A stretch of 53,099 nt of DNA from Chryseosolibacter histidinae (GTDB lineage: Bacteria > Bacteroidota > Bacteroidia > Cytophagales > Cyclobacteriaceae), in the NCBI RefSeq assembly GCF_018598225.1, contig NZ_JAHESF010000047.1:1-53099 (forward strand). The letters run 5' to 3'. Position numbers and translations under genes: made by a program. Shown here piece by piece: positions 2,530 through 53,099 of the stretch. Every line of letters begins with the position of its first letter. Position 1 is the first letter of the stretch. The notes beneath the pieces are model-generated. The model worked only from the letters and a program-made list of their open reading frames with translations, did not search any database and was not told the DNA's origin.

Positions 2530-2786
2530 GAAGGGTCCACGGTCGAACGGTCCACGGTCCACGGCAAGGTTTAGGTTGTTGGTGAAGAACACCAACAACG
2601 GCGGGGGTGGGTTTGTTGCTGCTGGTAAAAAAGGATGTGTTACTTGTGGTGAAGAACACCAACAAGGGCGCGGGAGCATCAACAACGGCGTGATGGTAGG
2701 TACGAGGTATGTCCCGATAGCTATCCGGGATAAGAGGTACAAGTTGGCGGATCCGTCCGTGGTCTGTGGACTGTCGACCGTGGACT
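2530..2786. repeat. Heptad-arm inverted repeat, GTCCAC family, site 1
   Basis: The left arm (about 2530-2563) reads as degenerate 7-nt units GGTCCAC/GGTCGAAC/GGTCCAC/GGTCCAC. The right arm (about 2753-2786) reads CCGTGGT/CTGTGGA/CTGTCGA/CCGTGGA, the reverse complement of the same word. The arms are about 190 bp apart, the widest in the window, and enclose two AAGAA-loop hairpins. The right arm ends 3 nt from the rlmN stop codon, so the element is downstream of rlmN. Confidence 0.72.
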
Positions 2787-2788
2787 AA

Positions 2789-3838
2789 TTAACTCTTATT
2801 CGCAAGCTGTCCGCAGGCGGCGTCGATATCTTTGCCGCGGCTTTTGCGGATGCGGGTGGTAATGCCGTGCCGCTCCAGCAGGTCCATGTACATGTTCAGC
2901 GCCTTTTCGGAGGCTTGCTGAAACTGGCCATCATCGATGGGGTTGTATTCAATAAGGTTTACCTTGCACGGAATGACCTTGCAGAATTTCAGCAACGCTT
3001 GCGCGTGTTCTTCGGTGTCGTTGATGTCTTTCCACACCACGTACTCATAGGTCACTTTGCGCTTGGTCTTTTGGTACCAGTATTTCAATGCTTCGGCGAG
3101 CTCTTCAAGGGAGTTCGACTCGTTGATGGGCATGATGGACGAGCGTATATGGTTGAGGGCCGAGTGCAGGGAAACGGCCAGGTTGAACTTGACGCCGTCA
3201 TCGGCCATTTTGATGATCATTTTTGCGATGCCTACTGTAGACACAGTAAGTCTTTTGGAAGCCATGGCGAGGCCCTGGTGCGAGGTGATCTTCTCTATGG
3301 CCGCTATCACGTTGGCATAATTGAGCAGCGGTTCGCCCATGCCCATAAATACGATGTTGGTCAGCGGCCTTCCGAAATAAAGCTCGCTTTGCTGCTTGAT
3401 CGCCACCACCTGGTCATAGATCTCGTCAGGATTCAGATTTCGCATACGCTTCAGGCGCGCCGTTGCGCAGAATTTGCAGTCGAGGCTGCAGCCCACCTGT
3501 GAAGAAACGCAGGCGGTGATCCTCTTTTCGGTAGGGATCAGTACGGACTCCACGATGAGGCCGTCGTGCAGGGTCACGGCATTTTTAATGGTGCCGTCGG
3601 CGCTCCGCTGCATGTGGTCTACCTTGATGAAGTTGATGGTAAAATGGGTCTTCAGCAGCTCCCTGACGGCAAGCGACAGGTTGGTCATGTCGTCAAAGTC
3701 CTTGACAGATTTTTTCCAGAGCCATTCGTGTACCTGCTGGGCACGGAAGGGTTTTTCCTTATGCTGAACAAAGAAATCCTTTAATTCTTCGAGCTTTAAT
3801 TTGCGTATGTCCCGCTTTACTGTCGTTTCAACCATCAT
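2789..3838 (-). CDS. rlmN: Dual-specificity RNA methyltransferase RlmN
   Basis: This 349-residue radical SAM enzyme methylates C2 of A2503 in 23S rRNA (and A37 of some tRNAs) in the cytoplasm. The radical SAM cluster motif CSLDCKFC (C117, C121, C124) is present, as is the MGMGEPLLN stretch after it. The two mechanistic cysteines are also visible: C110 in TACVSSQVGC and C342 near the C-terminus in AACGQLANKS. Length matches the family. Two adjacent ATG codons (3838 and 3835) can start it. It is separated from neighbours by 57 nt upstream and a repeat element downstream, so it may be transcribed alone. Confidence 0.97.
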   Translation of the reverse strand: MMVETTVKRDIRKLKLEELKDFFVQHKEKPFRAQQVHEWLWKKSVKDFDDMTNLSLAVRELLKTHFTINFIKVDHMQRSADGTIKNAVTLHDGLIVESVLIPTEKRITACVSSQVGCSLDCKFCATARLKRMRNLNPDEIYDQVVAIKQQSELYFGRPLTNIVFMGMGEPLLNYANVIAAIEKITSHQGLAMASKRLTVSTVGIAKMIIKMADDGVKFNLAVSLHSALNHIRSSIMPINESNSLEELAEALKYWYQKTKRKVTYEYVVWKDINDTEEHAQALLKFCKVIPCKVNLIEYNPIDDGQFQQASEKALNMYMDLLERHGITTRIRKSRGKDIDAACGQLANKS

Positions 3839-3895
3839 GCAAAGGTAACAACAAAGAACGGTAATCTTTGATTCACAGCAGGATGCGGAAAACCT

Positions 3896-4345
3896 TTATT
3901 TTAACCGGAGGAATATGCGGGTTTCGCAGGGCCGTGAGGAATTGGAAATAATGAGGGAATCGGCCGAGAATTTATCCACCATATAGCTGTTGCTGATGGT
4001 TTGCGATTTTTTATCGAGGATCATCAGTGTTTCACCATCGAACCGGTACAGGAAATTCTTGTTGTTGGACGTTTTCTTTTTGGTGAGAATGCGGGTGGAC
4101 TCTTCGCCCGCCATTTTCTCCTTGAAGACCACCACCTGCGCTGAGGGAGAACCCATCTCTTTCATATCCTCGATCATCCGCTGCGCCGTATCGTTGGCCG
4201 CGGTCATGTTCTCTTCCATACAATTGCTTTGTTTTACCAATTGCCAGCTTCCGACAATGGATTGCGCCCTTACGCCGAATGAAAAACTGCCAAGTACGAT
4301 CATCCAACCTGTAAAAATTATTGATTTTCTTACGTTCGGGTTCAT
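3896..4345 (-). CDS. Secreted lipocalin-like small protein
   Basis: I start this 149-residue protein at the ATG at 4345, because it gives a clean signal peptide (MNPNVRKSIIFTGWMIVLGSFSFGVRAQS, cleaved after RA or AQ). A longer start at 4384 would nearly touch the divergent gene at 4391. After the signal comes SIVGSWQLVKQ, the typical opening strand of bacterial lipocalin-like domains, followed by alternating strands to a C-terminal ISNSSRPCETRIFLRLK. Two cysteines (SNCMEE and RPCETR) could form a disulfide. The ligand and role are unknown. It shares a 45-bp divergent gap with the beta-lactamase-like gene. Confidence 0.7.
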   Translation of the reverse strand: MNPNVRKSIIFTGWMIVLGSFSFGVRAQSIVGSWQLVKQSNCMEENMTAANDTAQRMIEDMKEMGSPSAQVVVFKEKMAGEESTRILTKKKTSNNKNFLYRFDGETLMILDKKSQTISNSYMVDKFSADSLIISNSSRPCETRIFLRLK

Positions 4346-4390
4346 AGCTTTTGTTTTCTTTACCCTAATGTACTCAAAATCCAAGCCAGC

Positions 4391-5656
4391 ATGAAAAAGA
4401 TTCTACTCTTCCTTTTAGTGTCATTGTCTGTTTTTTCCTGTGCCCGGAAAAGTGACAATCTCATTGAAGGGCTTATGGAAGCACATCCCGATCAGTTTAA
4501 TGATATCCTTCAGAACAAGGACCGGTACGAGGTGCAGGTCATTTATACGCAGATCGACCGCAACGAGAAGAACGAGCCGTCATTCAGGTCCTACTATTTT
4601 AATGTGGATAGCTCCCGGTATTTCTATCCTGCCTCCACGGTGAAATTTCCGCTGGTATTGCTTTCGCTGGAAAAACTTCACCGTTTAAATGTCGACAAGC
4701 TTGATAAGTTTACGCCCGTTTTTCACGATAGTTTATACGCAGGACAGCGCTCTGTGGCTCAGGATACCACTGCTGAGAACAGACTGCCATCCGTTGCACA
4801 CTATGCAAAGAAGATCCTCGTCGTGAGCGATAACGACGCCTATAACCGTTTATATGAATTCATGGGACAGTCGGAGGTCAATAAGATCCTCCATGAAAAA
4901 GGCTACACTGCCACGCGGATCCTCCACCGGTTGGAGCGGCCCCTCAGCCGGGAAGAGAATGCACACACGGAGGCAGTGCGTTTTATGAACGGAAACACCC
5001 TCGTCTACGGGCAGCCGATGCTGGTGAACAATCCGCTCATAGAAGTAAAAGAGAAGATCCTGAAAGGGAAAGGTTTCAAAAGGAGGGATTCACTGATCAA
5101 CGAACCATTCGATTTTACCTATAAGAATTTTTTTCCCCTGAACGAGCAACAGGAATTGCTGCGTGCCTTCCTGTTCCCGGCCAGCGTTGCCGAACAGAAA
5201 AGGTTCGACCTCACGGAAGATGACAGGGCGTTTGTGCTGAAGTACATGTCGCAGCTACCGACCGAAACTATTTTCCCGCCTTATTATGCCGACACCTCTT
5301 ACCACGACGCAAGCTGCAAGTTCCTGATGTTCGGGAACGGTCATGAAGCCATCCCCGAAAACATCCGCATCTTTAATAAAATAGGCGATGCTTACGGATT
5401 TCTTATCGACAATGCTTATGTGGTCGATTTTAAGAACGGTGTTGAATTTATGCTCAGCGCCGTGATCAATACCAACACCGACGAGATCTACAACGATGGA
5501 AAATATGCCTACCGGGAGTTAGGTTTTCCGTTCATGAAAAACCTGGGACAGGTGATCTACGAACATGAGCTCACACGTGTTCGGAAGCACAAACCAGATC
5601 TCTCGGCGTTCAAACTTGTTTACGACCGTTCAAAACAACAGGCAGTAGGCAATTGA
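4391..5656 (+). CDS. Class A beta-lactamase-like serine hydrolase, lipoprotein
   Basis: This 421-residue protein has a lipoprotein signal (SLSVFSC, Cys17) and a penicillin-recognising fold. The active-site triplets are visible: S82-T-V-K85 (S-x-x-K), S146-D-N148 (SDN) and K330-I-G332 in place of KTG. At about 420 residues it is longer than true class A beta-lactamases (about 290), with an insertion between SDN and the KIG strand, so a periplasmic hydrolase or peptidase of murein peptides is as likely as an antibiotic-resistance enzyme. The last codons (QAVGN-stop) are built from a GCAGTAGGCAATT repeat that continues past the stop. The following genes (DUF1611, dipeptide epimerase) fit a peptidoglycan-peptide context. 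Confidence 0.85.
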   Translation: MKKILLFLLVSLSVFSCARKSDNLIEGLMEAHPDQFNDILQNKDRYEVQVIYTQIDRNEKNEPSFRSYYFNVDSSRYFYPASTVKFPLVLLSLEKLHRLNVDKLDKFTPVFHDSLYAGQRSVAQDTTAENRLPSVAHYAKKILVVSDNDAYNRLYEFMGQSEVNKILHEKGYTATRILHRLERPLSREENAHTEAVRFMNGNTLVYGQPMLVNNPLIEVKEKILKGKGFKRRDSLINEPFDFTYKNFFPLNEQQELLRAFLFPASVAEQKRFDLTEDDRAFVLKYMSQLPTETIFPPYYADTSYHDASCKFLMFGNGHEAIPENIRIFNKIGDAYGFLIDNAYVVDFKNGVEFMLSAVINTNTDEIYNDGKYAYRELGFPFMKNLGQVIYEHELTRVRKHKPDLSAFKLVYDRSKQQAVGN

Positions 5657-5782
5657 GCAGTAGGCAAATTGTCCACAGTCGACGGTCCACAGTCCACAGA
5701 CGGGCGGAGCGAAATCTACTTTCGTACCTTGTAAATCATACTTTCTGGTACGGCCGTGGACCATGGACTGTGGTCCGTGGAC
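5641..5782. repeat. Heptad-arm inverted repeat, GTCCAC family, site 2
   Basis: The left arm (5671-5703) reads GTCCACA/GTCGACG/GTCCACA/GTCCACA, exactly 7 nt per unit. The right arm (5754-5782) reads CCGTGGA/CCATGGA/CTGTGGT/CCGTGGA. The spacer is about 50 bp. A second repeat, GCAGTAGGCAATT given twice (5643-5669), precedes the left arm and includes the stop codon of the serine hydrolase. The element lies between two plus-strand genes, 78 nt before the next start. Confidence 0.78.
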
Positions 5783-5859
5783 TCATACAATCACTGGAAT
5801 CAGTGGTTGATTAACTGGATTTCTTGCCCGATATTTCAGGCTTTTGTTCATCGACCAAT

Positions 5860-6933
5860 ATGAAAAGCAACGCTATTGTTATTACCGGGGGATTGCTGGA
5901 TACCATTGCAGCAAAAACCGCGCATGGCCTGATCAGGGGAACGGATCGTTTTAATATCATCGGGATCATCGATCATAAATATCCCGGCAAGGATGCGGGC
6001 GAAGTGCTGGACGGCAGAAAACGCAACCTCCAGATCTATGCTTCGATCGCAGATTTTGTTTCATCCTCCAAAGAAAAAGCCAAGTATTGCATTGTAGGTG
6101 TTGCTACGAAGGGCGGCGTGATCCCTGAGTCGCTTCGGGCCGTGCTGAAGGAAGCACTCGAGAACGGTTACAACCTGGTGAACGGCCTGCACGAATACGT
6201 TTCGGACATTCCGGAGCTGGCGGACCTTGCCAAACAAAAAGGACTGGAGATCATCGATGTGCGCAAGCCCAAGAAGGTGAAAGACCTTCATTTCTGGTCG
6301 GGCAAGATCAAAGAAGTAAAATGCCCCAAGATTGCCGTGCTGGGAACAGACTGCTCCATGGGCAAAAGGACCACCACCCGTTTCCTGGTGGAAGCGATGC
6401 GCAAGGCTGGTTACAAAGCTGAGATGATCTACACCGGACAAACCGGATGGATGCAGGGCGCGAAATACGGATTTGTTTTCGACTCAACACTTAACGATTT
6501 TATTTCAGGTGAAATGGAACACGCAGTTCACACGTGTTACATGGAAGCGAAGCCTGATATCATTTTTATCGAAGGACAGTCGTCATTGAGAAACCCGAGC
6601 GGGCCTGCGGGTGCGGAGTGGATCGTATCGGCGGATGCCGACGGCGTTGTACTGCAGCATAACCCCCCGCGCAAGCAATACAAGGACATGGAATTTTATC
6701 CGGCCTACATTCCCGATCCGAAAGACGAGATCGCCCTGATCAAAATTTATGGCGCCAATACAGTAGCCCTGACGGTGAACACTGCGAAGATGAAGGAGCA
6801 GGATGCGCGCGACTATGCCAGCAAGTATGAGAAGGACCTAGGGATTCCCGTGGTGCTGCCGCTGGAAGATGGTGTTCAAAGCCTTGTTCCTTTATTCGAG
6901 GCGATGATCAAAAAAGCAGCAGCCACGGTGTAA
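5860..6933 (+). CDS. DUF1611 protein, DgcN-like (candidate D-glutamate N-acetyltransferase)
   Basis: This 357-residue cytoplasmic protein has the DUF1611 architecture: an N-terminal Rossmann-like domain and a C-terminal P-loop domain with GTDCSMGKRT (residues about 162-171) and a conserved EGQSSLRNPSGPAG stretch. I use the ATG at 5860 (MKSNAIVITGG); a TTG 36 nt upstream is less likely. From memory of the literature, DUF1611 members called DgcN N-acetylate D-glutamate and work with DgcA, an enolase-superfamily racemase; the next gene here is of that superfamily. The pair is probably co-transcribed (78 nt apart). Assignment to the family is strong; the reaction in this organism is inferred. Confidence 0.85.
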   Translation: MKSNAIVITGGLLDTIAAKTAHGLIRGTDRFNIIGIIDHKYPGKDAGEVLDGRKRNLQIYASIADFVSSSKEKAKYCIVGVATKGGVIPESLRAVLKEALENGYNLVNGLHEYVSDIPELADLAKQKGLEIIDVRKPKKVKDLHFWSGKIKEVKCPKIAVLGTDCSMGKRTTTRFLVEAMRKAGYKAEMIYTGQTGWMQGAKYGFVFDSTLNDFISGEMEHAVHTCYMEAKPDIIFIEGQSSLRNPSGPAGAEWIVSADADGVVLQHNPPRKQYKDMEFYPAYIPDPKDEIALIKIYGANTVALTVNTAKMKEQDARDYASKYEKDLGIPVVLPLEDGVQSLVPLFEAMIKKAAATV

Positions 6934-6939
6934 TACAAG

Positions 6940-6970
6940 AATTTAGAATTTAGCATTTAGAATATAGAAT
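6940..6970. repeat. Single tandem heptad arm, AATTTAG type
   Basis: Four degenerate 7-nt units follow one another: AATTTAG, AATTTAG, CATTTAG, AATATAG. They begin 7 nt after the DUF1611 stop codon. No inverted partner arm is visible in the 78-nt gap, so this may be half of an element of the type seen elsewhere in the window. Confidence 0.55.
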
Positions 6971-7011
6971 GGGAAGCGCGGATAATGCAACCTGATTATT
7001 AAAGATCGCGG

Positions 7012-8082
7012 ATGAAAATCAAGAATATTAAAGTCTGGAACGCAGACCTCGGCAACACGAAGCCCTATACCATCGCTTTTAAAACAGTTGATGAGGTGCG
7101 GAATGCTTTTGTGGAGATCACACTCGATAATGGTGTTACGGGCATCGGTTCCGGAAACCCCAGCGAGTACGTTGTTGGCGAGAACCTCAGCCAGACGTTG
7201 GAAGCGTTGCAAGAGAAGAACCTGGATTTTCTTGTCGGCCGCGATATCCGCGACTTCTATCAGCTCACCTTCGAGGTGCAGCAGAAGTTCCCGAAGAACC
7301 CTGCCGCACGTGCCGCCCTCGACATTGCCCTTCACGATGTGTTCACCAAATTTCTCGGCGTGCCGCTGGTGAAGTTCCTCGGGCAGAAGATCAAGACCAT
7401 GCCTACGTCCAATACCATCGGCATCAAGAGCGTGGAGGATACTTTAAAAGAGGCTGCAGAATACATCAAGAACGGTTTCAAGGTACTGAAGGTAAAACTT
7501 GGCAGAGACATCTCAGAAGATATCGAGCGCCTGGTGAAGCTGCGTGAGAAATTCGGCAACAGCGTGGTGATCCGCATCGATGCCAACCAGGGTTATAGTG
7601 TTGATCAGACCATCGAATTTTATAAGAAGACCACACACCTCAACATCGAGCTGATCGAGCAGCCCCTTCCTGCAAAGGCTGTAAAAGAAATGAAGGCCCT
7701 GCCTGATGAGATCAAGCTGAAGATCGCTGCCGATGAGTCGCTGATCTCTCCTAAAGATGCGCTCGAATTGGTGAAGCCACCCCGGGCCTCGGCCATTTTC
7801 AACATCAAGCTGATGAAGTGCGGTGGCGTGAGCCAGGGATTGAAGATCGCCGACATCGCCTTACAAGAGGGCGTTGATCTTTTCTGGGGCTGCAATGACG
7901 AGAGCATTGTCAGCATCACCGCAGCGCTCCATGCGGCCTTCTCGTGCACCAACACAAAATACATCGACCTCGATGGCAGCCTTGACCTGGGCCGCGACGA
8001 AGTAACGGGCGGATTTATTCTGAAAGACGGCTACATGTACTGTTCGGATAAGCCAGGCCTTGGGTTAGACAGGCTGGTGTAA
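7012..8082 (+). CDS. Dipeptide epimerase (L-Ala-D/L-Glu epimerase-like), enolase superfamily
   Basis: This 356-residue enzyme abstracts and returns the alpha proton of a glutamyl residue. The catalytic and metal residues of the muconate-lactonising subgroup are all in place: K160-x-K162 (LKVKLG), D190 (RIDANQG), E216 (IEQP), D241 (AADES) and K266 (NIKLMKCGG). A D319-x-D321 motif (IDLDGSLDL) matches the position that binds the dipeptide alpha-amino group in L-Ala-D/L-Glu epimerases. That favours a murein dipeptide over a free or N-acetylated glutamate. It follows the DUF1611 gene, so an N-acetyl-glutamate racemase role (DgcA-like) remains the alternative. Its stop codon merges into a heptad repeat arm. 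Confidence 0.9.
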   Translation: MKIKNIKVWNADLGNTKPYTIAFKTVDEVRNAFVEITLDNGVTGIGSGNPSEYVVGENLSQTLEALQEKNLDFLVGRDIRDFYQLTFEVQQKFPKNPAARAALDIALHDVFTKFLGVPLVKFLGQKIKTMPTSNTIGIKSVEDTLKEAAEYIKNGFKVLKVKLGRDISEDIERLVKLREKFGNSVVIRIDANQGYSVDQTIEFYKKTTHLNIELIEQPLPAKAVKEMKALPDEIKLKIAADESLISPKDALELVKPPRASAIFNIKLMKCGGVSQGLKIADIALQEGVDLFWGCNDESIVSITAALHAAFSCTNTKYIDLDGSLDLGRDEVTGGFILKDGYMYCSDKPGLGLDRLV

Positions 8083-8188
8083 GTACGAAATACGAAATAC
8101 GAGGTACGAAGTAAAATACCCTTCTATGTAAGAAAGCACACTGTTGTAGGTGACAAGCGTACCTCGTACTTCGTACCTCGTACCTTTT
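8081..8188. repeat. Heptad-arm inverted repeat, TACGARR family, site 1
   Basis: The left arm (8081-8113) contains TACGAAA/TACGAAA/TACGAGG/TACGAAG with exact 7-nt spacing. The right arm (8158-8185) is CGTACCT/CGTACTT/CGTACCT/CGTACCT. The spacer is about 44 bp. The first bases of the left arm are the last two of the epimerase stop codon. Transcribed on the plus strand, it forms a long stem followed by TTTTCCCC, so it could act as a terminator or mRNA 3'-end structure. Confidence 0.8.
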
Positions 8189-8254
8189 CCCCTTCTTATA
8201 AGTAAAGCTCCCCCTCACCCACCTCCAGCGATAGGCAAACGATCGGCCGTAACA

Positions 8255-8274
8255 AATACCAAGTATTTGGTATT
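8255..8274. promoter_or_regulatory. Perfect 20-bp hairpin/palindrome before the ankyrin operon
   Basis: AATACCAA (8255-8262) and TTGGTATT (8267-8274) are perfect inverted copies around GTAT. The site lies 65 nt upstream of the ATG at 8339. It could be an operator for the four-gene operon; no regulator can be assigned. A purine-rich GAGG 5 nt before the ATG serves as ribosome binding site. Confidence 0.4.
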
Positions 8275-8338
8275 GCCGATGCTCTTGTCGTGCGATAAGT
8301 TTAAAAAAAATTTGGCTAACTAATCTTACCTGAGGTGT

Positions 8339-16281: not shown

Positions 16282-16331
16282 AGGAAATACGAAGTACGAT
16301 CCCACGTACCTCGTATTTCGTACCTCGTACC
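16282..16331. repeat. Heptad-arm inverted repeat, TACGARR family, site 2 (compact)
   Basis: The left arm (16282-16300) has GAAA/TACGAAG/TACGAT. The right arm (16304-16331) is CGTACCT/CGTATTT/CGTACCT/CGTACCT. Only about 3 nt separate the arms, so this is a hairpin between two convergent genes and a natural bidirectional transcription barrier. It uses the same heptad as the element at 8081. Confidence 0.78.
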
Positions 16332-16333
16332 TT

Positions 16334-35610: not shown

Positions 35611-35757
35611 GGTTGCCGGTTGCCAGTTACCGGATAGCCGGTTCAGTGATGTGTTGTGATGAGATCATTTTTCTGAATAACAGAAAGTGAATTGAAACAC
35701 AGCAGTGAAAGCCGTGACCATCTCAACCGGCCAGCTGGCAACCGGCAACTGGCAACT
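35611..35757. repeat. Heptad-arm inverted repeat, RGTTRCC family, site 1
   Basis: The left arm (35611-35643) is GGTTGCC/GGTTGCC/AGTTACC/GGATAGC/CGGTT. The right arm (35725-35757) is AACCGGCCAG, then CTGGCAA/CCGGCAA/CTGGCAA/CT. The spacer is about 81 bp. It fills the gap between the convergent glycogen synthase and redoxin genes, with the left arm starting 2 nt past a stop codon. Confidence 0.8.
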
Positions 35758-38606: not shown

Positions 38607-38645
38607 AAGGCAGCGGAAAGGCGTATGAATGATAAGCAGAACGTT

Positions 38646-38653
38646 TACATTTG
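38646..38653 (+). promoter_or_regulatory. Putative -7 box of the folB promoter
   Basis: TACATTTG matches the Bacteroidota sigma-factor -7 consensus TAnnTTTG exactly and lies 30 nt before the folB start codon. I see no good TTTG box at the usual -33 distance, so this is a half match. Confidence 0.4.
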
Positions 38654-38682
38654 CTACGCTTAATTTGTAACCTTTCATTCTC

Positions 38683-39042: not shown

Positions 39043-39046
39043 ATTG

Positions 39047-39189
39047 GTTGCCGGTTACCGGTTGCCGGGTGGCCAGTTCAGCACAGGCTTCGGCTTTCAC
39101 TTTATGATTTCAAAATCAATTTGATAAATAGCAGATAGTAGTTTTTGGACACTACACGAACCGGTAACTGGCAACTGGCAACCAGTGAC
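39047..39189. repeat. Heptad-arm inverted repeat, RGTTRCC family, site 2
   Basis: The left arm (39047-39079) reads GGTTGCC/GGTTACC/GGTTGCC/GGGTGGCC/AGTT. The right arm (39158-39189) reads CCGGTAA/CTGGCAA/CTGGCAA/CCAGTGA. The spacer is about 78 bp. It fills the gap between convergent folB and the A-type Fe-S gene. Its core shares a GTGAAAGCCG stretch, in opposite orientation, with the core of the element at 35611. Confidence 0.8.
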
Positions 39190-39196
39190 AGGTACC

Positions 39197-42207: not shown

Positions 42208-42881
42208 CCAGGTTATTACTCATTATTTTTTTATTGGCTATCGAAGTCTCTGCTGTTGCGCAGAACAAATACGGATTGAAAGCCATGGCGTATCCGGAAT
42301 ACAAGGAAAGCATCAAGGCCGATCCTCAAAAAGAGCTGATCGACCTGGAGAAGTTTGTGCCGGGCCTGGTGATGGATATCCGTTATGCCACCACCAATAA
42401 CTTCACGCATGAGAAGATCTACAACATGGCGAAGGCGTATGCGCGCAGACCCGTGGCGGAAGCGTTGAAGAAGGTGCAGGAAGAGCTGAAACCACAGGGA
42501 CTGGGCATCAAGATGTTCGACGCCTACCGTCCGTATAAGGCAACCATCAAATTTTACGAGGTCTATCGCGATACCACCTACGTTGCGTCACCCTATCGTG
42601 GTTCAAGACATAACCGCGGTTGTGCCCTCGATCTCACGGTTATCGATCTGAAAACGGGAGAGGAGCTGAAGATGCCTACGGAATATGACTCGTTTAAAAA
42701 AGAAGCGTGGCCTTCTACGCCGGTAAGCGATCCGTTGATCCGCCGCAACCGCCAACTGCTCATCGACATCATGCAGAAATATGGCTTCCGTGTGAACGGC
42801 TCCGAATGGTGGCACTACGATTTCAAAGGCTGGAAGAATTTTGAGGTGATGGACATCGACTTCGAGGAACTGCAGAAATAG
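42204..42881 (+). CDS. D-Ala-D-Ala dipeptidase (VanX/DdpX-like, M15)
   Basis: This 225-residue secreted zinc peptidase has a signal peptide ([21 protein letters not shown]). Its active-site motifs are [15 protein letters not shown] (zinc His and Asp) and [10 protein letters not shown] (catalytic Glu and zinc His), the M15D pattern. D-Ala-D-Ala released from murein is its expected substrate. It is the last gene of the dtd-macro-dipeptidase unit. Its stop codon abuts a heptad arm. Confidence 0.93.
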
Positions 42882-43061
42882 ATATGAGACTTGAGATTTG
42901 AGACTGCGCCGTGTAGTCTATTGTATCAAATCTCACATCCGCGATACTTTTTCTGTGTAGCGAAATTGCCTCACCTCACCTACTGGTTGCCGAATATTCG
43001 AGATTTTTACGTCGACCGTCACCGGTATTATCTCATGTCTCAAATCTCATATCTCACATCT
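42881..43061. repeat. Heptad-arm inverted repeat, GAGAYTT family, site 1
   Basis: The left arm (42881-42907) contains GAGACTT/GAGATTT/GAGACTG. The right arm (43031-43061) is TCTCATG/TCTCAAA/TCTCATA/TCTCACA/TCT, exactly 7 nt per unit. The spacer is about 125 bp and contains an extra TCAAATCTCACATCC copy near 42926. The last G of the dipeptidase stop codon is also the first base of the arm. Confidence 0.75.
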
Positions 43062-45203: not shown

Positions 45204-45209
45204 ATAGTC

Positions 45210-45339
45210 CGGATGGCTATCGGGATGAGATATTTGAGACCCGGTAGTTATCGGGGCGAGATTTGGGAATGTCGTATATTCGACCTGCATTTATCTCTCC
45301 CGATAGCTATCGGGAACTCATATATCAAATCTCATATCT
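45210..45339. repeat. Heptad-arm inverted repeat, GAGAYTT family, site 2, with GATAGCTATC palindrome
   Basis: The left side (45210-45267) carries GGCTATCGGGATGAGATAT, TTGAGACC and a second TATCGGGGCGAGATTTGG copy. The right side (45294-45339) has the perfect 18-bp palindrome TCCCGATAGCTATCGGGA (45298-45315), then AACTCATA/TATCAAA/TCTCATA/TCT. It combines a heptad arm with the GATAGCTATC palindrome, and lies directly before the MazG-like start. Confidence 0.72.
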
Positions 45340-45340
45340 A

Positions 45341-45670: not shown

Positions 45671-45908
45671 AGAGTCCACAGACGACGGTCCACAGCAGCG
45701 CTATCCTGAGCGGTGCGGATGGTGCGTGGGAGCGAAGGACCCCGAGATCGTTACTGCGTACTTATTTCGTGCACCTGTTCTATGCGCGGGCGCTTCGTTA
45801 CAATGGGATCCTTTACTCGCGCAATGCCATCACACTTGCATCGTTCAGGATGACGGTCTTTCAGGGATTGGCCATGGACTATCGACCATGGACCATGGAC
45901 TATCGACT
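45671..45908. repeat. Composite element: GTCCAC heptad arms around an inner ATCCTGA inverted repeat
   Basis: The outer left arm (45671-45694) has GTCCACA/GACGACG/GTCCACA. The outer right arm (45871-45908) has CCATGGA/CTATCGA/CCATGGA/CCATGGA/CTATCGA/CTC. Inside is a second pair of inverted arms: ATCCTGAG...GCGAAGGACC (45703-45742) and GGATCCTTTAC...TTCAGGATGACGG (45805-45856), resembling the dispersed ATCCTGAGCGAAGGATC-type repeat. The outer right arm also encodes the last codons (SR-stop) of comB. It lies between convergent mazG-like and comB genes. Confidence 0.75.
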
Positions 45909-46607
45909 CACCGTTAGCACATTATCCACCAGCCTTGGCACCACGTCATACTGATCAGGTGTGAGGCAGAACTCGATGTCTTTGTGGATGCCGAGTTTTC
46001 CCAGTCGTTTTACGTGGCTCGAGGTGCTGAGAAATGCCACCATATCGTTCTTGGCCTGGTTGTAGAGGTGTTGGGCTGCCAGCGGTGCATCACAGGCGAG
46101 CTCCGTTTCATTTTTCAGTTTTTCAACAACAGCACCGGCAAACAGCGTGTCTTCGAGGTTTACTTTTCCTTTCCAGCCTGCACACACTACCAGTATGTCA
46201 TAAGGCAACTCACGCACATGCGTAGCAACAGCTGACAGGTTGAGGAACGAGCCGATGACGATCTCCTTCGCCCCCAGTGATTTTACAATGGCTTGTGTTC
46301 CGTTGGTGGTGGTAAAGGCAATATTTTTTCCTTTGAGCGCAGGGTTCTGGTATTCGAAGGGGGAGTTACCCAGGTCAAATCCATCCACTTTTTTTCCGTC
46401 ACGCTCGCCGGCTGTGAAATATCCTTTTTCTTTCATGGCCAGGCAGTCTTGGAGCTGCGCGAAAGGTGCGATGGTGGCGATGCCATGCGCGAAGGCCGTG
46501 GTCATGCACGAAGTAGCCCTGAGAATATCCACCACAACAACGGTGTGGTTTTGCACATTGTAAAGGTGCATGAGGTCAGGCGAGAGACAAACGTCGATGG
46601 TCTTCAT
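45900..46607 (-). CDS. comB: 2-phosphosulfolactate phosphatase (ComB-like)
   Basis: This 235-residue enzyme releases phosphate from 2-phosphosulfolactate. The ComB core is seen: MKTIDVCLSPDLMHLYN, VVVVDILRATSCMTTAFAHG, YFTAGERDGKKVDGFDLGNSPFEY, NIAFTTTNGTQAIVKSLGAKEIVIGSFLN and VVCAGWKGKVNLEDTLFAGAVVEKL. In methanogens it serves coenzyme M synthesis; in Bacteroidota it may serve sulfolactate or sulfonolipid-related routes. It is 19 nt behind gcvT, so likely co-transcribed. Its 3' end is made of a repeat arm. Confidence 0.9.
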   Translation of the reverse strand: MKTIDVCLSPDLMHLYNVQNHTVVVVDILRATSCMTTAFAHGIATIAPFAQLQDCLAMKEKGYFTAGERDGKKVDGFDLGNSPFEYQNPALKGKNIAFTTTNGTQAIVKSLGAKEIVIGSFLNLSAVATHVRELPYDILVVCAGWKGKVNLEDTLFAGAVVEKLKNETELACDAPLAAQHLYNQAKNDMVAFLSTSSHVKRLGKLGIHKDIEFCLTPDQYDVVPRLVDNVLTVSR

Positions 46608-46626
46608 GATCTTGTTCTGCGGGCGA

Positions 46627-47715
46627 TCATTGACCGATCAGGGGAAGTTTGCTCACTGCTGCTTTCAGATTTTTTCCACGAACATCAATGAAGATCTCGC
46701 TTCCGGGATTGGCGTGTTGTGTGGTAACATATCCTAACCCGATGCCTACACTCAGCATGGGCGACATGGTTCCGGAAGTAACTTTGCCGATCACATTTCC
46801 CTGGGCATCTTTGATCTGGTAGTCGTGACGGGGAATACCTTTGTCGATCATCTTAAAGCCTACGAGCTTGCGCTTTACACCTTCTTCTTTTTGCTTTTTG
46901 AGGCTGGCCGAATTGGTAAAGTCTTTCGTGAACTTTGTGATCCAGCCTAATCCTGCTTCGAGGGGAGAAGTGGTATCGTCGATGTCGTTGCCATAGAGGC
47001 AGAATCCCATTTCGAGTCGCAGCGTGTCGCGGGCACCTAATCCGATAGGTTTAATATCTTTATCTTTTCCAGCTTCGAAGATGGCGTTCCATACTTTTTC
47101 TGCATGCTGCTTCTGCACATAGATCTCGAAACCTCCTGCGCCGGTATATCCGGTGTTGGAGATGATCACGTTGGGAACGCCCGCGAAATCGCCAATGGCA
47201 AAGTGATAATATTTGATGGTTTTGAGATCGGTTTTGGTCAGCTTCTGCAGCACTTCCGCGGCCTTGGGACCTTGCACGGCAAAGAGGCAGATATCGTCAG
47301 AGATATTTTTCATCTCCGCGCCTTTCGTATTGAACTTGCTGATCCAGTTCCAGTCCTTGTCAATGTTCGAGGCGTTGACCACCACGAGGTAGTCATTGTC
47401 CTTGATCTTGTACACAATGAGGTCGTCTACAATGCCCCCGGTTTCATTGGGCAGCGATGAGTACTGGGCCTGGCCGTCAATCAGTTTTGATGCATCGTTG
47501 GAAGTTACCCGCTGGATGAGGTCCAGGGCATGGGGGCCTTTGATGGTGAATTCGCCCATGTGGGAGACGTCAAAAACGCCTACGCCATTCCTTACGGTCA
47601 TATGCTCCTCAATATCCGAAGCGTATCGCACAGGCATATTATAACCCGCAAAAGGCACCATTTTGCCGCCCAGTTTAACATGGAGATCGTTCAGGGGGAT
47701 TTGTTTTACTTCCAT
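46627..47715 (-). CDS. gcvT: Glycine cleavage system T protein (aminomethyltransferase)
   Basis: This 362-residue protein transfers the methylene group from the aminomethyl-lipoyl H protein to tetrahydrofolate. The opening [28 protein letters not shown], the folate-site segment [31 protein letters not shown] and [29 protein letters not shown], and the [21 protein letters not shown] closing match the family. The length is typical. Downstream is comB; upstream is a heptad element. Confidence 0.97.
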
Positions 47716-47768
47716 AAGCTACTTTTAAGTGGCACAAAGCTAATAGAAGCTGGTGAATAAAAAAGACG

Positions 47769-47883
47769 TCAGGAGCCAGGAGTCAGAAGCCAGAAGCGCC
47801 AGATCAACGGGCAATGCCTTGATTTCCACTTTAGTACACGGTTATTCAAAGTCTTGATGCTCCTCTCCTGACTCCTGGCTTCT
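47769..47883. repeat. Heptad-arm inverted repeat, CAGRAGY family
   Basis: The left arm (47769-47796) is CAGGAGC/CAGGAGT/CAGAAGC/CAGAAGC. The right arm (47860-47883) is CTCCTCT/CCTGACT/CCTGGCT/TCT. The spacer is about 63 bp. The right arm runs into the stop codon of the lipoprotein gene. It lies between two minus-strand genes, downstream of the lipoprotein. Confidence 0.75.
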
Positions 47884-48325
47884 ATTCCTTCTTCGCTTGC
47901 TCAAGCGCTTGCAGAATATCTTCCCGCACCTTCTTCACCTTCTCCATCTCATTTTCCAAATATTCGCGAGCTTTTTCTTCACCGAGGCTGTCGGGCAGGG
48001 GACGGAACTGGCGCATCCAGACCATCATTCCTTCGCCGGCGGAATCGAGGCGGGCAATGGTTGCTTCGATGGCGGGTTTTTCTGCGGCGGTTGCTTTTTC
48101 AAGCTTCTCTCTCAGCTGCTGCTTGGTTCTGTGAATATCATCCATTTTGGGCATTACCTCATCGTGAACTTTCATCACTTCATTATACAGTGCCTGGTTG
48201 CCACTGTTGTCTGTAACATCGCTCGCCGTGGCGTCGTGATCCGCATGCTCATGTGATTTTTCTTTGCAGCCGAACGCGATGAGGATCAGCGACAGGGAAA
48301 GGAGCTTCCAAAAAGATGTGTTCAT
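47882..48325 (-). CDS. Small lipoprotein with a His-rich linker
   Basis: I start this 147-residue protein at the ATG at 48325, which gives a lipoprotein signal (LSLILIAFGC) followed by KEKSHEHADHD. The rest is helical and charged (EVMKVHDEVMPKMDDIHRTKQQLREKLEKA, EKAREYLENEMEKVKKVREDILQALEQAKKE). The His-rich stretch might bind metal. I do not recognise a function. Its stop codon is part of a heptad arm; upstream is the leuA terminator. Confidence 0.7.
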   Translation of the reverse strand: MNTSFWKLLSLSLILIAFGCKEKSHEHADHDATASDVTDNSGNQALYNEVMKVHDEVMPKMDDIHRTKQQLREKLEKATAAEKPAIEATIARLDSAGEGMMVWMRQFRPLPDSLGEEKAREYLENEMEKVKKVREDILQALEQAKKE

Positions 48326-48370
48326 GTGCTTGAATTTTTCGCTAAGGTACGGGCCGGCCGGCACAGGCAC

Positions 48371-48410
48371 AAAAAAAATACGGACGCCCAATTTCTCAGG
48401 CATCCGCATT
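48371..48410 (-). terminator. leuA terminator hairpin
   Basis: On the minus strand, ATGCGGATGCC pairs with GGCGTCCGTAT (G-U pairs allowed, loop TGAGAAATTG) and is followed by TTTTTTTG. It begins 24 nt after the leuA stop codon. This is a good intrinsic terminator for the leu operon. Confidence 0.78.
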
Positions 48411-48433
48411 CTCATTAACCAAAGGTCTTCAGA

Positions 48434-49594
48434 CTATTTTACAAGGATGGGCATCTGCGCCGCCAGGGCTATCAGGTCTTCATCCTCCACTTTTTTCTTT
48501 TCGTCGGCAACTACCAGGAAGTTCTCGTATAAAACGTCGAGCTCGGCTTTGGTGGTCTGGTATCCCAGCAGCTCCATGCGGTGCTTCAACGCGGCGCGAC
48601 CGCTGCGGGCTGTCAGCACAATGGAAGAGCATGGCACCCCTACTTCGTCGGGGTTGATGATCTCGTAGTTCTCTGAATTTTTCAGGAAGCCGTCCTGGTG
48701 AATGCCCGAAGAGTGGGCAAACGCGTTGGCTCCAACGATCGCCTTATTGGGTTGCACCGGCATGCGCATCAGGTCAGAAACCAGCTGGCTCATGGCGTAG
48801 ATCCTTTCAGACTTGATGTTGGTATGCAGGCCAAGGTCTTTGTGTGTTTTGATGATCATGGCCACTTCTTCCAGTGAAGTGTTGCCGGCGCGCTCGCCAA
48901 TACCGTTGATGGTGACCTCTGCCTGGCGCGCGCCATTGGCCAATCCGGCGATGGTGTTGGCGGTGGCAAGGCCTAAATCGTTATGGCAGTGTACGGAGAT
49001 CACTGCTTTGTGAATGTTGCTCACATGCTCATAGAGATACTTGATACGTTTTCCGTAGAGCTCAGGCAGGCAATAGCCAGTGGTATCGGGAATGTTTACC
49101 ACGTCTGCTCCGGCGGCGATCACAGCTTCCACCATCTGGGCGAGGAAAGCCAGGTCTGCACGGCCAGAATCTTCTGCGAAGAACTCTACTTCAACACCTT
49201 TGCTCTTGGCATACTGTACGGCCCACACGCCCTGCTCCAGCACCTTTTCACGGGTGGTATTGAATTTGTGCTTGATGTGAATGTCGGACGAACCGATACC
49301 GGTGTGGATCCTTCCACGTTTGGCGTAGCGAAGGGCTTCGCCTGCAACGTCGATGTCGTCTTTTTTGGAGCGGGTCAGCGCACACACCACAGGCTCTTTC
49401 ACGGCCTTGGAGATCTCTATCACCGATAGAAAGTCGCCAGGGCTGGAAATGGGAAATCCCGCCTCGATAATATCTACCCCCAACAACTCCAGCTCACGTG
49501 CAACGATGATCTTTTCATCGGTTGACAGCTGGCACCCGGGCACTTGTTCGCCATCCCGTAAAGTGGTGTCGAAGATCTGGATTTTCTGACTCAT
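48434..49594 (-). CDS. leuA: 2-isopropylmalate synthase, short form
   Basis: This 386-residue enzyme condenses acetyl-CoA and 2-oxoisovalerate in leucine synthesis. [31 protein letters not shown], the metal site [14 protein letters not shown] and [19 protein letters not shown] are present. At 386 residues it lacks the C-terminal regulatory domain (about 130 residues) that makes most LeuA enzymes leucine-sensitive; it ends after [31 protein letters not shown]. It may not be feedback-inhibited, or a separate protein may supply regulation. Citramalate or homocitrate synthase is a less likely alternative. It is the last gene of leuCDBA. Confidence 0.88.
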
Positions 49595-49619
49595 AATTCT
49601 TTGTTTAATTCCCTGTGGT

Positions 49620-50720
49620 TTATTTTTCTACCGGTAATGAAACTATCATTCTGATCTGGTTGCTCACAACATTGCCCATCACCTCCGTGCCCAGGATCTT
49701 CTCATGAGCGGTTGACGGATCTGCAATGTCTCTTGTGCGATAACCTTCTTTCAAAGTTCTTTCTACTGCCTTGATCACTGTATCGGCTTCTTCCTGCAGG
49801 CCGAAAGAAATGTCGAGCAATAGGGCTGCAGACAGGATGGAGGCAAGCGGGTTGGCGATACCTTTTCCTGTAATGTCGTGCGCACTTCCGTGGATCGGTT
49901 CGTAAAGACCTACGGTGTCGCCTACGGATGCGGAAGCCAGCATACCCATGGAGCCCGCGATCTGCGATGCTTCATCGGTGAGAATGTCTCCGAAAAGATT
50001 TCCGGTAACCACCACATCGAAGCTCTTCGGATTCTGGATGAGCTTCATGGCGGCGGCATCCACAAACATGTGCTCTACGGTTACGTCAGGATATTGTTTC
50101 GCCACTTCCTGAACAACGGCTCTCCAGAGGCGTGAGCTTTCGAGCACGTTGGCCTTATCCACAGAAGTAACTTTCTTGCGCCGCGTCTGCGCTGCCTTGA
50201 AAGCCTTGTGTGCGATGCGCTCCACTTCGTAGGTGGAGTAGATCATGGTATCGTAGGCGGTCTTGTTGTCGTTCTTTCTTCCACGTTCGCCGAAGTACAC
50301 GTCTCCCGTCAGCTCGCGGAAGAACAGGATATCGGCTCCCTTCAGGATCTCGGGTTTAATGCTGGAGGCTGCGAGGAGCTCATCGAACAATTTAATGGGG
50401 CGAAGGTTGGCATAGAGACCCAGTTCCTTGCGCATCTTCAGCAATCCCTGTTCGGGCCTTACGGGCAATGTAGGATCGTTATCGTACTTGGGGTGTCCTA
50501 CGGCACCAAAGAGAATGGCGTCTGATTTTTTCAGCTTGGCCAGCGTTTCATCGGGAAGTGGAGTTCCCGTTGCTTCGATGGCCTCATGACCGATCTGGCC
50601 GTAATCAAAAACAAACTCATGGCCAAAGCACTCGGCGATCTGCTCCAATACTTTTTTACCACAGGCGGTAACTTCTTTGCCTATTCCATCGCCGGGCAGT
50701 ATGGTTATTTTTTTCTTCAT
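49620..50720 (-). CDS. leuB: 3-isopropylmalate dehydrogenase
   Basis: This 366-residue enzyme oxidises and decarboxylates 3-isopropylmalate with NAD. The start [138 protein letters not shown] and [26 protein letters not shown] are all family motifs. It sits 7 nt after leuD and 25 nt before leuA. Confidence 0.97.
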
Positions 50721-50727
50721 CAGTGGG

Positions 50728-51315
50728 TTAGTGGGTTAATTCAAATTGTTTTATCTCGTCGCGCAGGCTTATCAGGTAGTCGATATCATCGTAGCCGTTG
50801 GCGAGGCATGTCTTCTTGTAGGCGTTGATCTCGAAATTTTCGGAGGTGCCGTCTTCCAGCACTACCTTCTGATTCTGGAGGTCAACCGTGATGGCGGTGG
50901 AAGGGTTTTTACGGATGGCCTCGAAGACCTTTTTCAGGAAGGCATCCGATACCTGAACGGGGAGCAGCGCATTGTTCAGGGCATTGTTCTTGAAGATGTC
51001 GGCGAAGAAGCTGGAGATCACCACGCGGAAGCCATAGTCATAGATAGCCCATGCTGCGTGCTCGCGGCTGCTGCCACATCCGAAGTTCTTTCCAGCCACC
51101 AACACTTTGCCAGTATAGGTCTGATCGTTCAACACGAAGTCGGCCTTCGGTTTGCCTTCGCCATCGTAACGCCAGTCGCGGAAAAGATTTTCTCCGAAGC
51201 CTTCGCGTGTGGTGGCTTTCAGGAACCGCGCAGGAATGATCTGGTCGGTATCGATGTTCTCAATCGGCAACGGAACTGCCGCACTTTTCAGAGTTGTGAA
51301 TTTTTCTTTGCTCAT
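50728..51315 (-). CDS. leuD: 3-isopropylmalate dehydratase small subunit
   Basis: I start this 195-residue subunit at the ATG at 51315 ([33 protein letters not shown]). A TTG start 24 nt upstream is weaker. [43 protein letters not shown] is the family core. With LeuC it isomerises 2- to 3-isopropylmalate. It is 36 nt after leuC and 7 nt before leuB. Confidence 0.96.
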
Positions 51316-51351
51316 CTCAACAATCGGTCTATTCGTCAAAATCGCTGATCG

Positions 51352-52761
51352 TTATACCAGCTCGCGTACGTCTGTTACTTTTCCCGTAATGGCTGCAGCG
51401 GCAGCGCTGAGCGGGCTTGCCAGAAACGTTCTGGACTTAGGTCCCTGCCTTCCCTCGAAATTCCTATTGGAAGTGGAGATGCAGTACTTGCCTGCGGGGA
51501 TCTTGTCTTCGTTCATGCCGAGACATGCCGAGCAGCCGGGCTCACGAAGCTCGAAACCTGCTTCTTCGAAAATTTTATCGAGGCCTTCTTTGCGGGCCTG
51601 TTGCTCCACCTGCTTCGAACCGGGAACAACCCATACTTCAACGTTGGGTGCCTTTTTCTTGCCTTTCACCATCTGGGCTACGAGGCGCAGGTCTTCGATG
51701 CGGGCATTGGTGCAGCTTCCGATAAACACGTAGTCAACGGCTTTACCCAGCAGCTGGCTTCCAGGCTCTAGGCCCATATACTCCAGCGACCTCGAGAACG
51801 AGGTCTGCTCGCTGATGTCTTTTAGCTCTGCCACCGTAGGGATCCGGTCTGTTACCTTGATGCCCATGCCGGGGTTGGTGCCGTAGGTGATCATGGGAGC
51901 AATGTCTGCGGCATCGTATACCAGCACTTTATCGTACTCGGCGCCTTTGTCGGTTTTCAAATGTCTCCACTGCTCTACCAGTCTTTCAAAATGTTCGCCC
52001 TTCGGAGCAAACTGCCTTCCCTTGATGTATTCGAAGGTGGTTTCATCCGGAGCGATCAGCCCGCCGCGTGCACCCATTTCTATGCTCATGTTGCAGATGG
52101 TCATGCGCGCTTCCATGGAGAGATTGCGGATGGTGTCTCCGGCGTACTCAACGAAGTAACCAGTAGCACCGCTCGCAGAGATCTTGGAAATGATGTAGAG
52201 GATAATATCTTTTGCCAGCACACCTTTTGCCAGCTTGCCGTTGATCTCGATCTTCAGGCGCTTGGGTTTGTACTGAAGTATGCACTGTGTTGCCAGCACC
52301 TGCTCCACTTCGCTTGTGCCGATACCGAATGAGATATTGCCAAAGGCACCGTGGGTAGATGTGTGGCTATCGCCGCATACGATGGTCATTCCCGGCAGCG
52401 TAAGACCAAGCTCGGGACCGATGATGTGAACGATGCCCTGGAAGGGATGGCCCAGGTCGTAGAGATTTACCCCGAACTCAGCGCAGTTCTTGCGCAGGGT
52501 CTCTACCTGGTGTCTCGACAGCGCTTCTTTGATAGGGAGGTGCTGATCTTTGGTGGGAACGTTGTGGTCGGCCGTTGCTGTAGTGCGTGACGGATTGAAG
52601 ACCTTGATACCTCTTTTACGGAGCCCGTCGAATGCCTGGGGGCTTGTAACTTCGTGAATGAAATGACGGTCAATGAATACTACATCCGGGTATCCTTCGC
52701 TCTGCTTTACCACGTGTGCATCCCAGATCTTGTCGAACAGTGTTTTTGGTGAATTACTCAT
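51352..52761 (-). CDS. leuC: 3-isopropylmalate dehydratase large subunit
   Basis: This 469-residue aconitase-like protein carries the 4Fe-4S site: cysteines in [14 protein letters not shown] and [45 protein letters not shown] and [23 protein letters not shown] are further family motifs. Its opening [15 protein letters not shown] is typical. It is the first gene of leuCDBA and lies about 85 nt downstream of a hairpin that may be an attenuator. Confidence 0.97.
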
Positions 52762-52846
52762 TTTTTATGGTTTAACTCAGCGGCTTTCTTTTTCACGTTT
52801 TCTAATAATAACAACTGTTAGTTCGTTCAGGATTCCTTAAAACGAA

Positions 52847-52879
52847 ACCGTCCCGCCCTGGTACTCAGGACGGGACGGT
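52847..52879 (-). terminator. Putative leu operon attenuator hairpin
   Basis: On the minus strand, ACCGTCCCGTCCTG (52879-52866) pairs with CAGGGCGGGACGGT (52860-52847) across a 5-nt loop, with one G-U pair. TTTCGTTTTAAGG follows. A terminator this close before leuC (about 85 nt) suggests attenuation. The G-U pair exists only on the minus strand (a C-A mismatch on the plus strand), supporting this orientation. Confidence 0.6.
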
Positions 52880-52913
52880 GGCTCAGTGTCTGTATTACAA
52901 CGATTGCTGAATG

Positions 52914-52970
52914 TTAATTCAAAATTACGTTTTTGTGACTTACGAAGATGACAAAAAGTGAAGGCAGCAT
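52914..52970 (-). CDS. Candidate leucine-operon leader peptide
   Basis: An 18-codon frame starts at the ATG at 52970 and reads MLPSLFVIFVSHKNVILN. Eight of 18 residues are Leu, Val or Ile. It ends 34 nt before the terminator-like hairpin and about 150 nt before leuC. That is where a BCAA attenuation leader would be expected. No strong ribosome binding site is visible, and I found no clear antiterminator pairing, so this remains a candidate. Confidence 0.4.
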   Translation of the reverse strand: MLPSLFVIFVSHKNVILN

Positions 52971-53030
52971 CAATGAAAATCGCAAAAATTTTTCAATCGA
53001 AGAACAAGTGTTTGGTTGCCGGCAGGGCCG

Positions 53031-53099
53031 AAGTTTGAAGTTTAAAGTTTGAAGTTTAAAGTTGTTGCCGGTTGCCAGTTGCCTGTTGCCAGTTGCCTG
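53031..53099. repeat. Two tandem heptad arms at the right edge (AAGTTTR and RGTTGCC)
   Basis: First AAGTTTG/AAGTTTA/AAGTTTG/AAGTTTA/AAGTT (53031-53063), then GGTTGCC/AGTTGCC/TGTTGCC/AGTTGCC to the edge, all with a 7-nt period. The second is the same word as in the elements at 35611 and 39047. The matching opposite arms, if any, lie outside the window. Confidence 0.75.

Follow-up and report, generated by a model that had tools for sequence, protein, structure and literature searches.

Between its genes, the 53,099-nucleotide (nt) contig of Chryseosolibacter histidinae examined here (NZ_JAHESF010000047.1, hereafter the window) carries paired inverted arms made of degenerate tandem heptanucleotides. 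Such arms number many hundreds in the genome as a whole, and most of them are paired. These are probably miniature, non-coding, dispersed foldback elements, REPIN-like in plan but of no named family, that were copied as units and of which several word families were amplified in the lineage. What is new about such heptad-armed elements is that their polarity is absolutely inward and that they hug stop codons. The window is contig C64 of the source genome, G000, which comprises 8,041,252 bases in 122 contigs. Apart from searches of the whole genome, the analysis used a sample of 853,099 bases made up of the window and 40 stretches of 20 kilobases (kb), with about 89% of G000 outside it, and samples from relatives. 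The sampled contigs were chosen from those already showing matches to the word TACGARR; as a result, densities in the sample are skewed towards the RRTACGA family, and whole-genome counts are unaffected. Gene boundaries are those of open reading frames scored by hexamers and called within this analysis.

The period of the arrays is exclusively 7 nt. With a detector that demands at least 12 matches at a given lag in a window of 14 comparisons, 198 arrays were found at lag 7 in the sample against 0–16 at every other lag from 2 to 13, and the multiples of 7 gave 176 arrays at lag 14 and 83 at lag 21. The first 453 kb alone held 116 period-7 arrays against 0–9 at other periods from 3 to 13. Although intergenic DNA makes up 98 kb of the 853 kb, 187 of the 198 arrays are intergenic. 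In the whole genome, counted as overlapping three-unit windows and not as arms, TACGARR gave 501 matches with up to 2 mismatches, and RGTCSAC and RGTTRCC gave 593 and 426 with up to 1; the reversed pattern gave none for any of the three. A preliminary description of this DNA had allowed that the periodicity could be local chance, and the genome-wide excess is at odds with that.

Pairing was equally clear. An inverted partner, with a score of at least 12 within 300 nt of the array, was present for 125 of 197 arrays, compared to 17 of 197 when the flank of another array was used and 0 of 197 with shuffled flanks, bearing out the paired arms of the preliminary description. A direct-orientation partner was present for only 22 of 197. 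When arms were defined by word patterns instead, there were 306 of them compared to 7 in reversed sequence, and 112 of the 306 were unpaired; inner units are off-pattern in 18–31% of cases, and the detector tolerates at most one mismatch. Same-family neighbors no more than 400 nt apart face inward in 97 cases and outward in none, with 3 and 4 cases in the two direct orders. The word patterns were fixed after the first 453 kb had been inspected; once a further 400 kb had been included and the RGTRWTC pattern made wider, inward pairs rose from 63 to 97 with outward pairs still at 0. The polarity of the inverted pairs is absolute.

Read inward along the left arm, the commonest words of G000 are RGTCSAC, RGTCSAT, RGTTRCC, RRTACGA, RGTTTNA and RGTRWTC, and rarer ones are AGYCAGR, GAGAYWT, AGTAGGC and AGTARGG. 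Spacer length is typical of the family: 11–54 nt in 20 of 21 RRTACGA elements, 15–48 nt in the 12 RGTRWTC elements, 70–150 nt in the 17 RGTTRCC elements and 56–226 nt in the 18 RGTCSAC elements. The arms also have defined ends. Those of RGTCSAC tend to start with AAG, and the sequence after the arm is often AGC or GGC; since AGC is also borne by several RGTCSAT arms, the two words look related. A common "RGT" in all words was considered as well; it fails in the congener G002, where left arms such as CCAAATA occur.

At the level of sequence, the RGTTRCC family demonstrates copying as a whole unit. A BLAST comparison of a 401-nt stretch containing the element at 35611–35757 against G000 gave 52 other matches (40 of 204 candidates scored), 48 of which keep within 10 nt of the element, most of them covering a single arm. 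The four best matches span the element to within 7 nt of each end with 72–76% identity. Among 39 RGTTRCC elements, 37 of 741 pairs reach a spacer score of at least 110, and in these pairs the spacers are 76.9% identical, the arms 88.5%, and the 25 nt outside each end 28.8%; the typical divergence of RGTTRCC spacers is larger, because the 37 pairs were picked for similar spacers. A permissive scoring was then applied in which comparisons above the 99% shuffled level were counted and spacers from other families served as the control. It gave 25/272 against 12/679 for RGTTRCC and 11/12 against 25/212 for AGTAGGC, and it overturned the idea that spacers are wholly unrelated, a product of strict scoring. 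Judged by these counts, clear spacer homology is confined to two families, RGTTRCC and AGTAGGC, and the shared spacers suggest whole-unit copying in the latter. Extending it to the remaining words because they share the same plan is an extrapolation only. The mobile palindromic element that had been suggested from the letters alone is supported for RGTTRCC, where homology between elements with similar spacers ends at the arm ends, and is extrapolated for other words.

Replication slippage would produce heptad microsatellites like the STRR repeats of filamentous cyanobacteria, with the second arm arising via inverted duplication. STRR repeats and the elements described here share a heptad unit and an intergenic location; STRR arrays, however, are direct, and homogeneous like the cyanobacterial AGYCAGR loci discussed below. 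A period of exactly 7 fits slippage, as does the homogeneity of arrays at loci selected for the AGYCAGR word, and identical neighbors are not depleted in RRTACGA (20 observed, 19.6 expected) or RGTRWTC (7 and 7.9). In the seven G000 words pooled, however, adjacent exact units are identical in 58 cases against 81.1 (standard deviation 5.6) expected from shuffling within runs, a depletion strongest for RGTCSAC (4 versus 13.8), and units three apart are identical in 37 cases versus 21.8 expected. These values were recomputed on runs of exact units, since the lag-3 excess in a first test of unit order was partly an end effect. The two arms of one element are also no more alike than arms of other elements, and the polarity is absolute. 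On these three grounds slippage with inverted duplication was rejected for the pooled G000 words, which do not form the homogeneous direct repeats of a cyanobacterial-type microsatellite, and the slippage-driven element of the preliminary description is contradicted for these families. As a general explanation, slippage is very improbable.

The elements are placed close behind genes. In tandem gaps (n = 58) a median of 6.5 nt separates the stop codon from the element, and a median of 70 nt lies between the element and the start codon that follows. For convergent gaps the distance to the stop codon has a median of 3 nt (no more than 20 nt in 51 of 56), and for divergent gaps the distance to the start has a median of 91 nt (no more than 20 nt in 3 of 22). 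Among gaps 60 nt or longer, the share with arrays is 36/76 for convergent, 74/261 for tandem and 20/89 for divergent ones, and overall 135 of the 666 gene junctions in the sample hold them, so that the elements shape much of the intergenic DNA of G000.

This placement, with stop codons hugged from both sides of convergent gaps and convergent gaps the most often filled, invites the view that each element is a bidirectional 3'-end RNA structure: the transcript of either gene would fold into a long hairpin past the stop codon, ending or protecting the RNA. Gene ends that bear heptads have canonical terminator-like hairpins at roughly half the frequency of other gene ends (odds ratio 0.45–0.58, p 0.007–0.025 over four thresholds). 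With a looser detector the difference is significant in tandem gaps (p 0.007) and not significant in convergent gaps (p 0.32), and the depletion lends little weight since filled convergent gaps leave scant room for a canonical terminator. The elements themselves are not of the intrinsic terminator type, a short-loop GC hairpin with a T run, as their spacers are 11–226 nt long. The base pairs do not agree with an RNA role either. No preference for G-U pairs was found in the transcribed sense in tandem gaps, with 59 G-U versus 77 A-C discordances (p 0.14), contrary to the earlier suggestion that arm changes preserve G-U pairing. The sense fold is the more stable one in just 23 of 57 tandem elements. 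In a comparison that covered six families and 91 elements, the two arms of one element resemble each other less than same-family arms of different elements do (0.838 versus 0.857), with P 0.0003 when anchored at the outer end, P 0.013 at the inner end and P 0.0014 in free register. A selected RNA stem is therefore not supported, there being no G-U bias in the sense strand and own arms being less complementary than random same-family arms. Occupied divergent gaps are also left unexplained by a pure gene-end role. Of the proposed 3'-end RNA structure, the position behind stop codons stands and the base-pair evidence fails, which leaves it unlikely.

REPINs, or REP doublets, share the overall plan, having inverted conserved ends, a less conserved spacer of typical length and a high copy number (PMC3116915, PMC3733652), and REPs are likewise found extragenically next to stop codons (PMC3733652). 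Here too, inverted doublets with conserved ends surround a less conserved spacer (0.77 compared to 0.89 for arms in homologous RGTTRCC pairs) and lie outside genes near their 3' ends. In contrast to REPINs, the arms are tandem heptads without a hairpin of their own, several words coexist per genome, and no link to RAYT transposases was found. A single left arm barely folds (minimum free energy −4.0 versus −3.3 for shuffled arms, and −46.5 for a whole element), so the ends are not imperfect palindromes as in REPs. Of the tetranucleotides that tag the ends of REPs, GTAG is found at 11 of 97 left arms versus 3.8 expected, partly from the AGTAGGC word itself, and CGTC at 3 of 97 versus 4.1.

True REPINs moved by RAYT transposases of G000 itself would account for this plan and placement, and three RAYT matches over the cut-off exist in G000; some 200 nt beyond the 3' end of one of them (L061) lies an RRTACGA element, and the other two (L062, L063) have no element. 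Against this, 30 further RAYT loci of 20 genomes contained one real period-7 array (L359), a second flagged locus (L354) being a run of N, and relatives whose 20-kb samples are free of arrays have as many RAYT matches (G018 12, G009 8, G012 5). With one real array at 30 loci and ends that are not palindromic, REP/RAYT membership was rejected, and movement by the resident RAYT transposases is improbable. The array at L359 (G068 C8:453429-453890) is built from the GTAG-containing word GCAGTAGGC; in G000, it is the family with this word whose spacers are best conserved. As a separate observation, two RAYT-type transposase genes lie about 6 kb apart in the same orientation at G000 C45:122201-128861.

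Several results weigh against foldback elements copied as units. No transposase family was linked at the RAYT loci. Most RGTTRCC spacer pairs (704 of 741) are under the score cut, and in the permissive comparison RGTCSAC spacers are only slightly above control (14/272 versus 20/680), with no clear excess for RRTACGA (6/12 versus 98/212), RGTTTNA (4/42 versus 26/349) or RGTCSAT (1/42 versus 17/350). The better conservation of arms than spacers is not special, because a survey of perfect inverted repeats reported it as a general feature (PMC13155455). Sharing of three-unit blocks lies within the shuffled range. Unpaired same-family arms up to 6 kb apart gave no inward pairs in the 853 kb, so that this sample held no autonomous element with long-distance arms. 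No clean empty site was obtained, and divergent gaps are occupied as well. Carriage by phages was also considered and rejected, as three words searched in IMG/VR gave 0, 12 and 15 stretches, mostly single arms.

The elements might instead be arrays of sites to which proteins bind, DNA-bending ones or others, with one word for each protein, and might act as roadblocks, insulators or nucleoid anchors. Arms better conserved than spacers in homologous RGTTRCC pairs, free unit order with variation at set positions as in binding sites, and strict inward polarity are all consistent with this. A protein that is itself conserved is a poor fit to words that differ between congeners and to one word in many phyla, and unit copying is left unexplained; such arrays are a doubtful alternative to copied foldback elements. 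The proposal has a precedent in Geobacter metallireducens, in which tandem repeat sites of 7- to 9-nt units with several words were described as putative IHF/HU sites (PMC2700814). Classes 1 and 2 of these form opposite-strand pairs at variable distance (PMC2700814), like the elements described here, which have tandem units in the 7- to 9-nt range, opposite-strand pairs and variable distances. Read on the opposite strand, the class 3 word MTYCTGA (PMC2700814) becomes TCAGRAK, which by our comparison is a rotated form of AGYCAGR or CAGRAGY, and an inward AGYCAGR pair was found in a Geobacteraceae genome (L206). The Geobacter sites differ in that they come from one genome, and neither a polarity rule, a copy unit nor stop-codon placement is among the features described in the part of that source consulted; class 1 units are octanucleotides, and H4 heptanucleotide elements also lie inside genes (PMC2700814). 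The statement that no named family has this architecture thus holds for the name, whereas paired tandem-repeat sites with several words had already been described in this species (PMC2700814).

A survey of the literature on heptanucleotide, inverted or foldback repeats found no paper that treats this architecture as a class of its own; the nearest account is that of the G. metallireducens sites (PMC2700814). Foldback transposons, for example FB and Galileo of Drosophila, have long inverted ends of short tandem subrepeats around a variable middle; they are eukaryotic, larger and have known transposase types. Like a miniature inverted-repeat transposable element (MITE), the elements have terminal inverted repeats around a short non-coding core and dispersed copies, but no target-site duplication above chance. 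Within the Bacteroidota, the BrickBuilt MITE of Porphyromonas gingivalis is a miniature intergenic element with tandem repeats (PMC4596501); unlike the elements here it has 23-nt repeats, small inverted ends and 19 copies in one strain (PMC4596501). The TAACTGA repeats of Beggiatoaceae, Cyanobacteria and Bacteroidetes are mostly intergenic heptad arrays (PMC4679880), and the reverse complement rotates to AGTTATC, by our comparison one base off the AGTTACC unit found here. They differ in being direct, with one indirect set, and in lying mostly just upstream of start codons in the main genome described (PMC4679880).

Comparison with the congeners G001 and G002, which are 66–78% identical to G000 in aligned pieces, points to turnover of words. 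Three units of RGTCSAC or RGTTRCC, the two words searched there, gave 0 matches in both, and both carry other heptad words. One G002 word gave 0 matches in G000; its reversed control gave 35 in G002, being near another heptad word there. Not every word differs between congeners, because one AGTAGGC array was also present in the G002 sample (L078). The gap at 39043–39196 measures 154 nt in G000; in G002 its length is 371 nt and the words are others, and in G001 it is −11 nt and has no element. The gap at 38607–38682, array-free in G000, holds differing words in G002 and G001. The proposed alignment of orthologous gaps reveals differences in both presence and word. Since congeners carry different elements at corresponding gene ends, the elements could shift transcription boundaries quickly.

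Further afield, RGTCSAC was present in all four searched members of another genus (8–45 matches), and three units of TACGARR in 17 genomes, one of them G000, among the 390 searched in the order. In the pair G068 and G357, which are 85–92% identical over their longest blocks, 13 of 121 orthologous gaps were picked for arrays or a large length change, and the element most clearly common to both has a different unit composition and interior in each. Two side observations concern this pair. A called gene on the minus strand (L110, G068 C6:242412-243719; L138, G357 C1:290451-291698) has an internal heptad chain in which the word drifts unit by unit and differs between the two species. Arrays of TCARTTCN (G357 C1:287087-287300; G068 C6:238373-238767) have 8-nt units, so octads occur too in a genus that also has heptads.

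The word AGYCAGR recurs in many phyla. When 84,980 species genomes were searched with one exact pattern of three units and two bases, at least 118 stretches matched, where about 0.5 would be expected by chance with equal base frequencies. The matches listed come from Cyanobacteria, Acidobacteria, Nitrospirae, Deltaproteobacteria, Bacteroidota, Planctomycetes, Verrucomicrobia, Chloroflexi, Bacillota, Gammaproteobacteria and others. Among the 118 loci listed, neighbors within 400 nt are inward in 11 cases, outward in 0 and direct in 17; divided by origin, the inward, outward and direct counts are 2, 0 and 7 in the 54 cyanobacterial loci and 9, 0 and 10 in the 64 others. Most of these arrays are unpaired and homogeneous: a unit is identical to its neighbor in 194/228 cases in cyanobacteria and in 168/245 elsewhere. 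From the neighbor and unit counts, AGYCAGR comprises both slippage-like direct arrays and paired arms. In tandem gaps at 80 of the loci, with genes taken as plain longest open reading frames, 30 arms are in the sense of the gene and 15 against it.

It is conceivable, but tentative, that these observations belong to an unrecognized cross-phylum class of foldback elements with a partly shared vocabulary of degenerate heptads, inward polarity and a machinery that reads the 7-nt period, whose words are replaced between sister species and whose copies at stop codons become gene-end boundaries. The scattered reports of TAACTGA repeats and paired Geobacter sites may then come together as a single class that can be tested. 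That the period is 7 nt and no other, that the polarity is fixed and that one word occurs across many phyla all point to a specific machinery.

If the elements of G000 are copied foldback units, the copy unit of each would be bounded by the outer ends of its two inward-facing arms, which mostly have 2–5 degenerate heptads and flank a spacer of family-typical length. Several families, one per word, would have been amplified in this lineage, with copies that lie in intergenic DNA, tightest just behind stop codons. After copying, spacers would diverge and arms would retain the word, with set positions free to vary. Target-site duplications of at least 4 nt were found at 3 of 97 elements versus 4.5 expected, and those of 2–5 nt were near chance. 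The lack of such duplications, the foldback shape and the REP-like placement together suggest a single-strand or hairpin-based mechanism in trans. Fewer identical neighboring units and the mismatch between own arms may reflect selection against perfect repeats, and retention at gene ends could mean that the elements do something there, perhaps as bidirectional transcription boundaries.

The elements of the window are collected in Table 1. Tandem 7-nt units are present everywhere the preliminary description had placed them; partner arms exist for the arrays at 2530, 5671, 8081, 16282, 35611, 39047, 42881, 45210, 45671 and 47769, and those at 6940 and 53031 are unpaired, as described. The array at 53069 sits at the end of the contig, so any partner would fall beyond the sequence.

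Table 1. Heptad arms, spacers and arrays in the window
Feature	Position	Strand	Remark
RGTCSAC left arm	2534..2564	+	
RGTCSAC right arm	2759..2786	-	partner of 2534..2564, spacer ~190 nt
RGTCSAC left arm	5671..5699	+	
Right arm	5754..5783	-	partner of 5671..5699
Unpaired array, word AGAATTT	6938..6970	+	inside 78-nt gap
RRTACGA left arm	8082..8109	+	starts on last stop-codon base of gene 7012-8082
Right arm	8158..8185	-	partner of 8082..8109
RRTACGA left arm	16286..16299	+	2 units
Right arm	16305..16332	-	partner of 16286..16299
RGTTRCC left arm	35611..35631	+	one base between arm and glycogen synthase stop codon
Spacer	35632..35736	.	homologous to some other RGTTRCC spacers of G000
Right arm	35737..35757	-	partner of 35611..35631
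RGTTRCC left arm	39046..39066	+	behind folB
Right arm	39163..39183	-	partner of 39046..39066
GAGAYWT left arm	42880..42903	+	
Right arm	43029..43061	-	partner of 42880..42903
GAGAYWT left arm	45224..45241	+	degenerate (weak)
GAGAYWT right arm	45318..45339	-	
RGTCSAC left arm	45673..45693	+	
Right arm	45872..45908	-	of 45673 element; related word RGTCSAT
AGYCAGR left arm	47770..47797	+	
Right arm	47865..47883	-	partner of 47770..47797
AAGTTTR array	53030..53063	+	
RGTTGCC array	53064..53099	+	extends into contig end

Ten genes of the window were scanned for function, eight of which lie beside an array. They are a mixed set, partly housekeeping, and a link between the elements and gene function was dropped. 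Rfam gave no match in the window at the gathering threshold, and a further 66 kb of G000 DNA yielded a tRNA and nothing else.

Some further repeats were noted among the arms. The hairpin TTGGTGAAGAACACCAA occurs twice in the spacer of the 2530 element (window 2575–2668). A 16-nt palindrome, CCCGATAGCTATCGGG, has four copies in the window with up to 2 mismatches (2713–2728, 45209–45224, 45240–45255 and 45299–45314) where 0.01 would be expected, and three of these fall near heptad arms in the gap at 45204–45340. The interior of the 45671 element (45718–45901) is 71–79% identical to seven other places in G000 among the matches listed, and appears to represent another dispersed repeat, nested inside the heptad arms.

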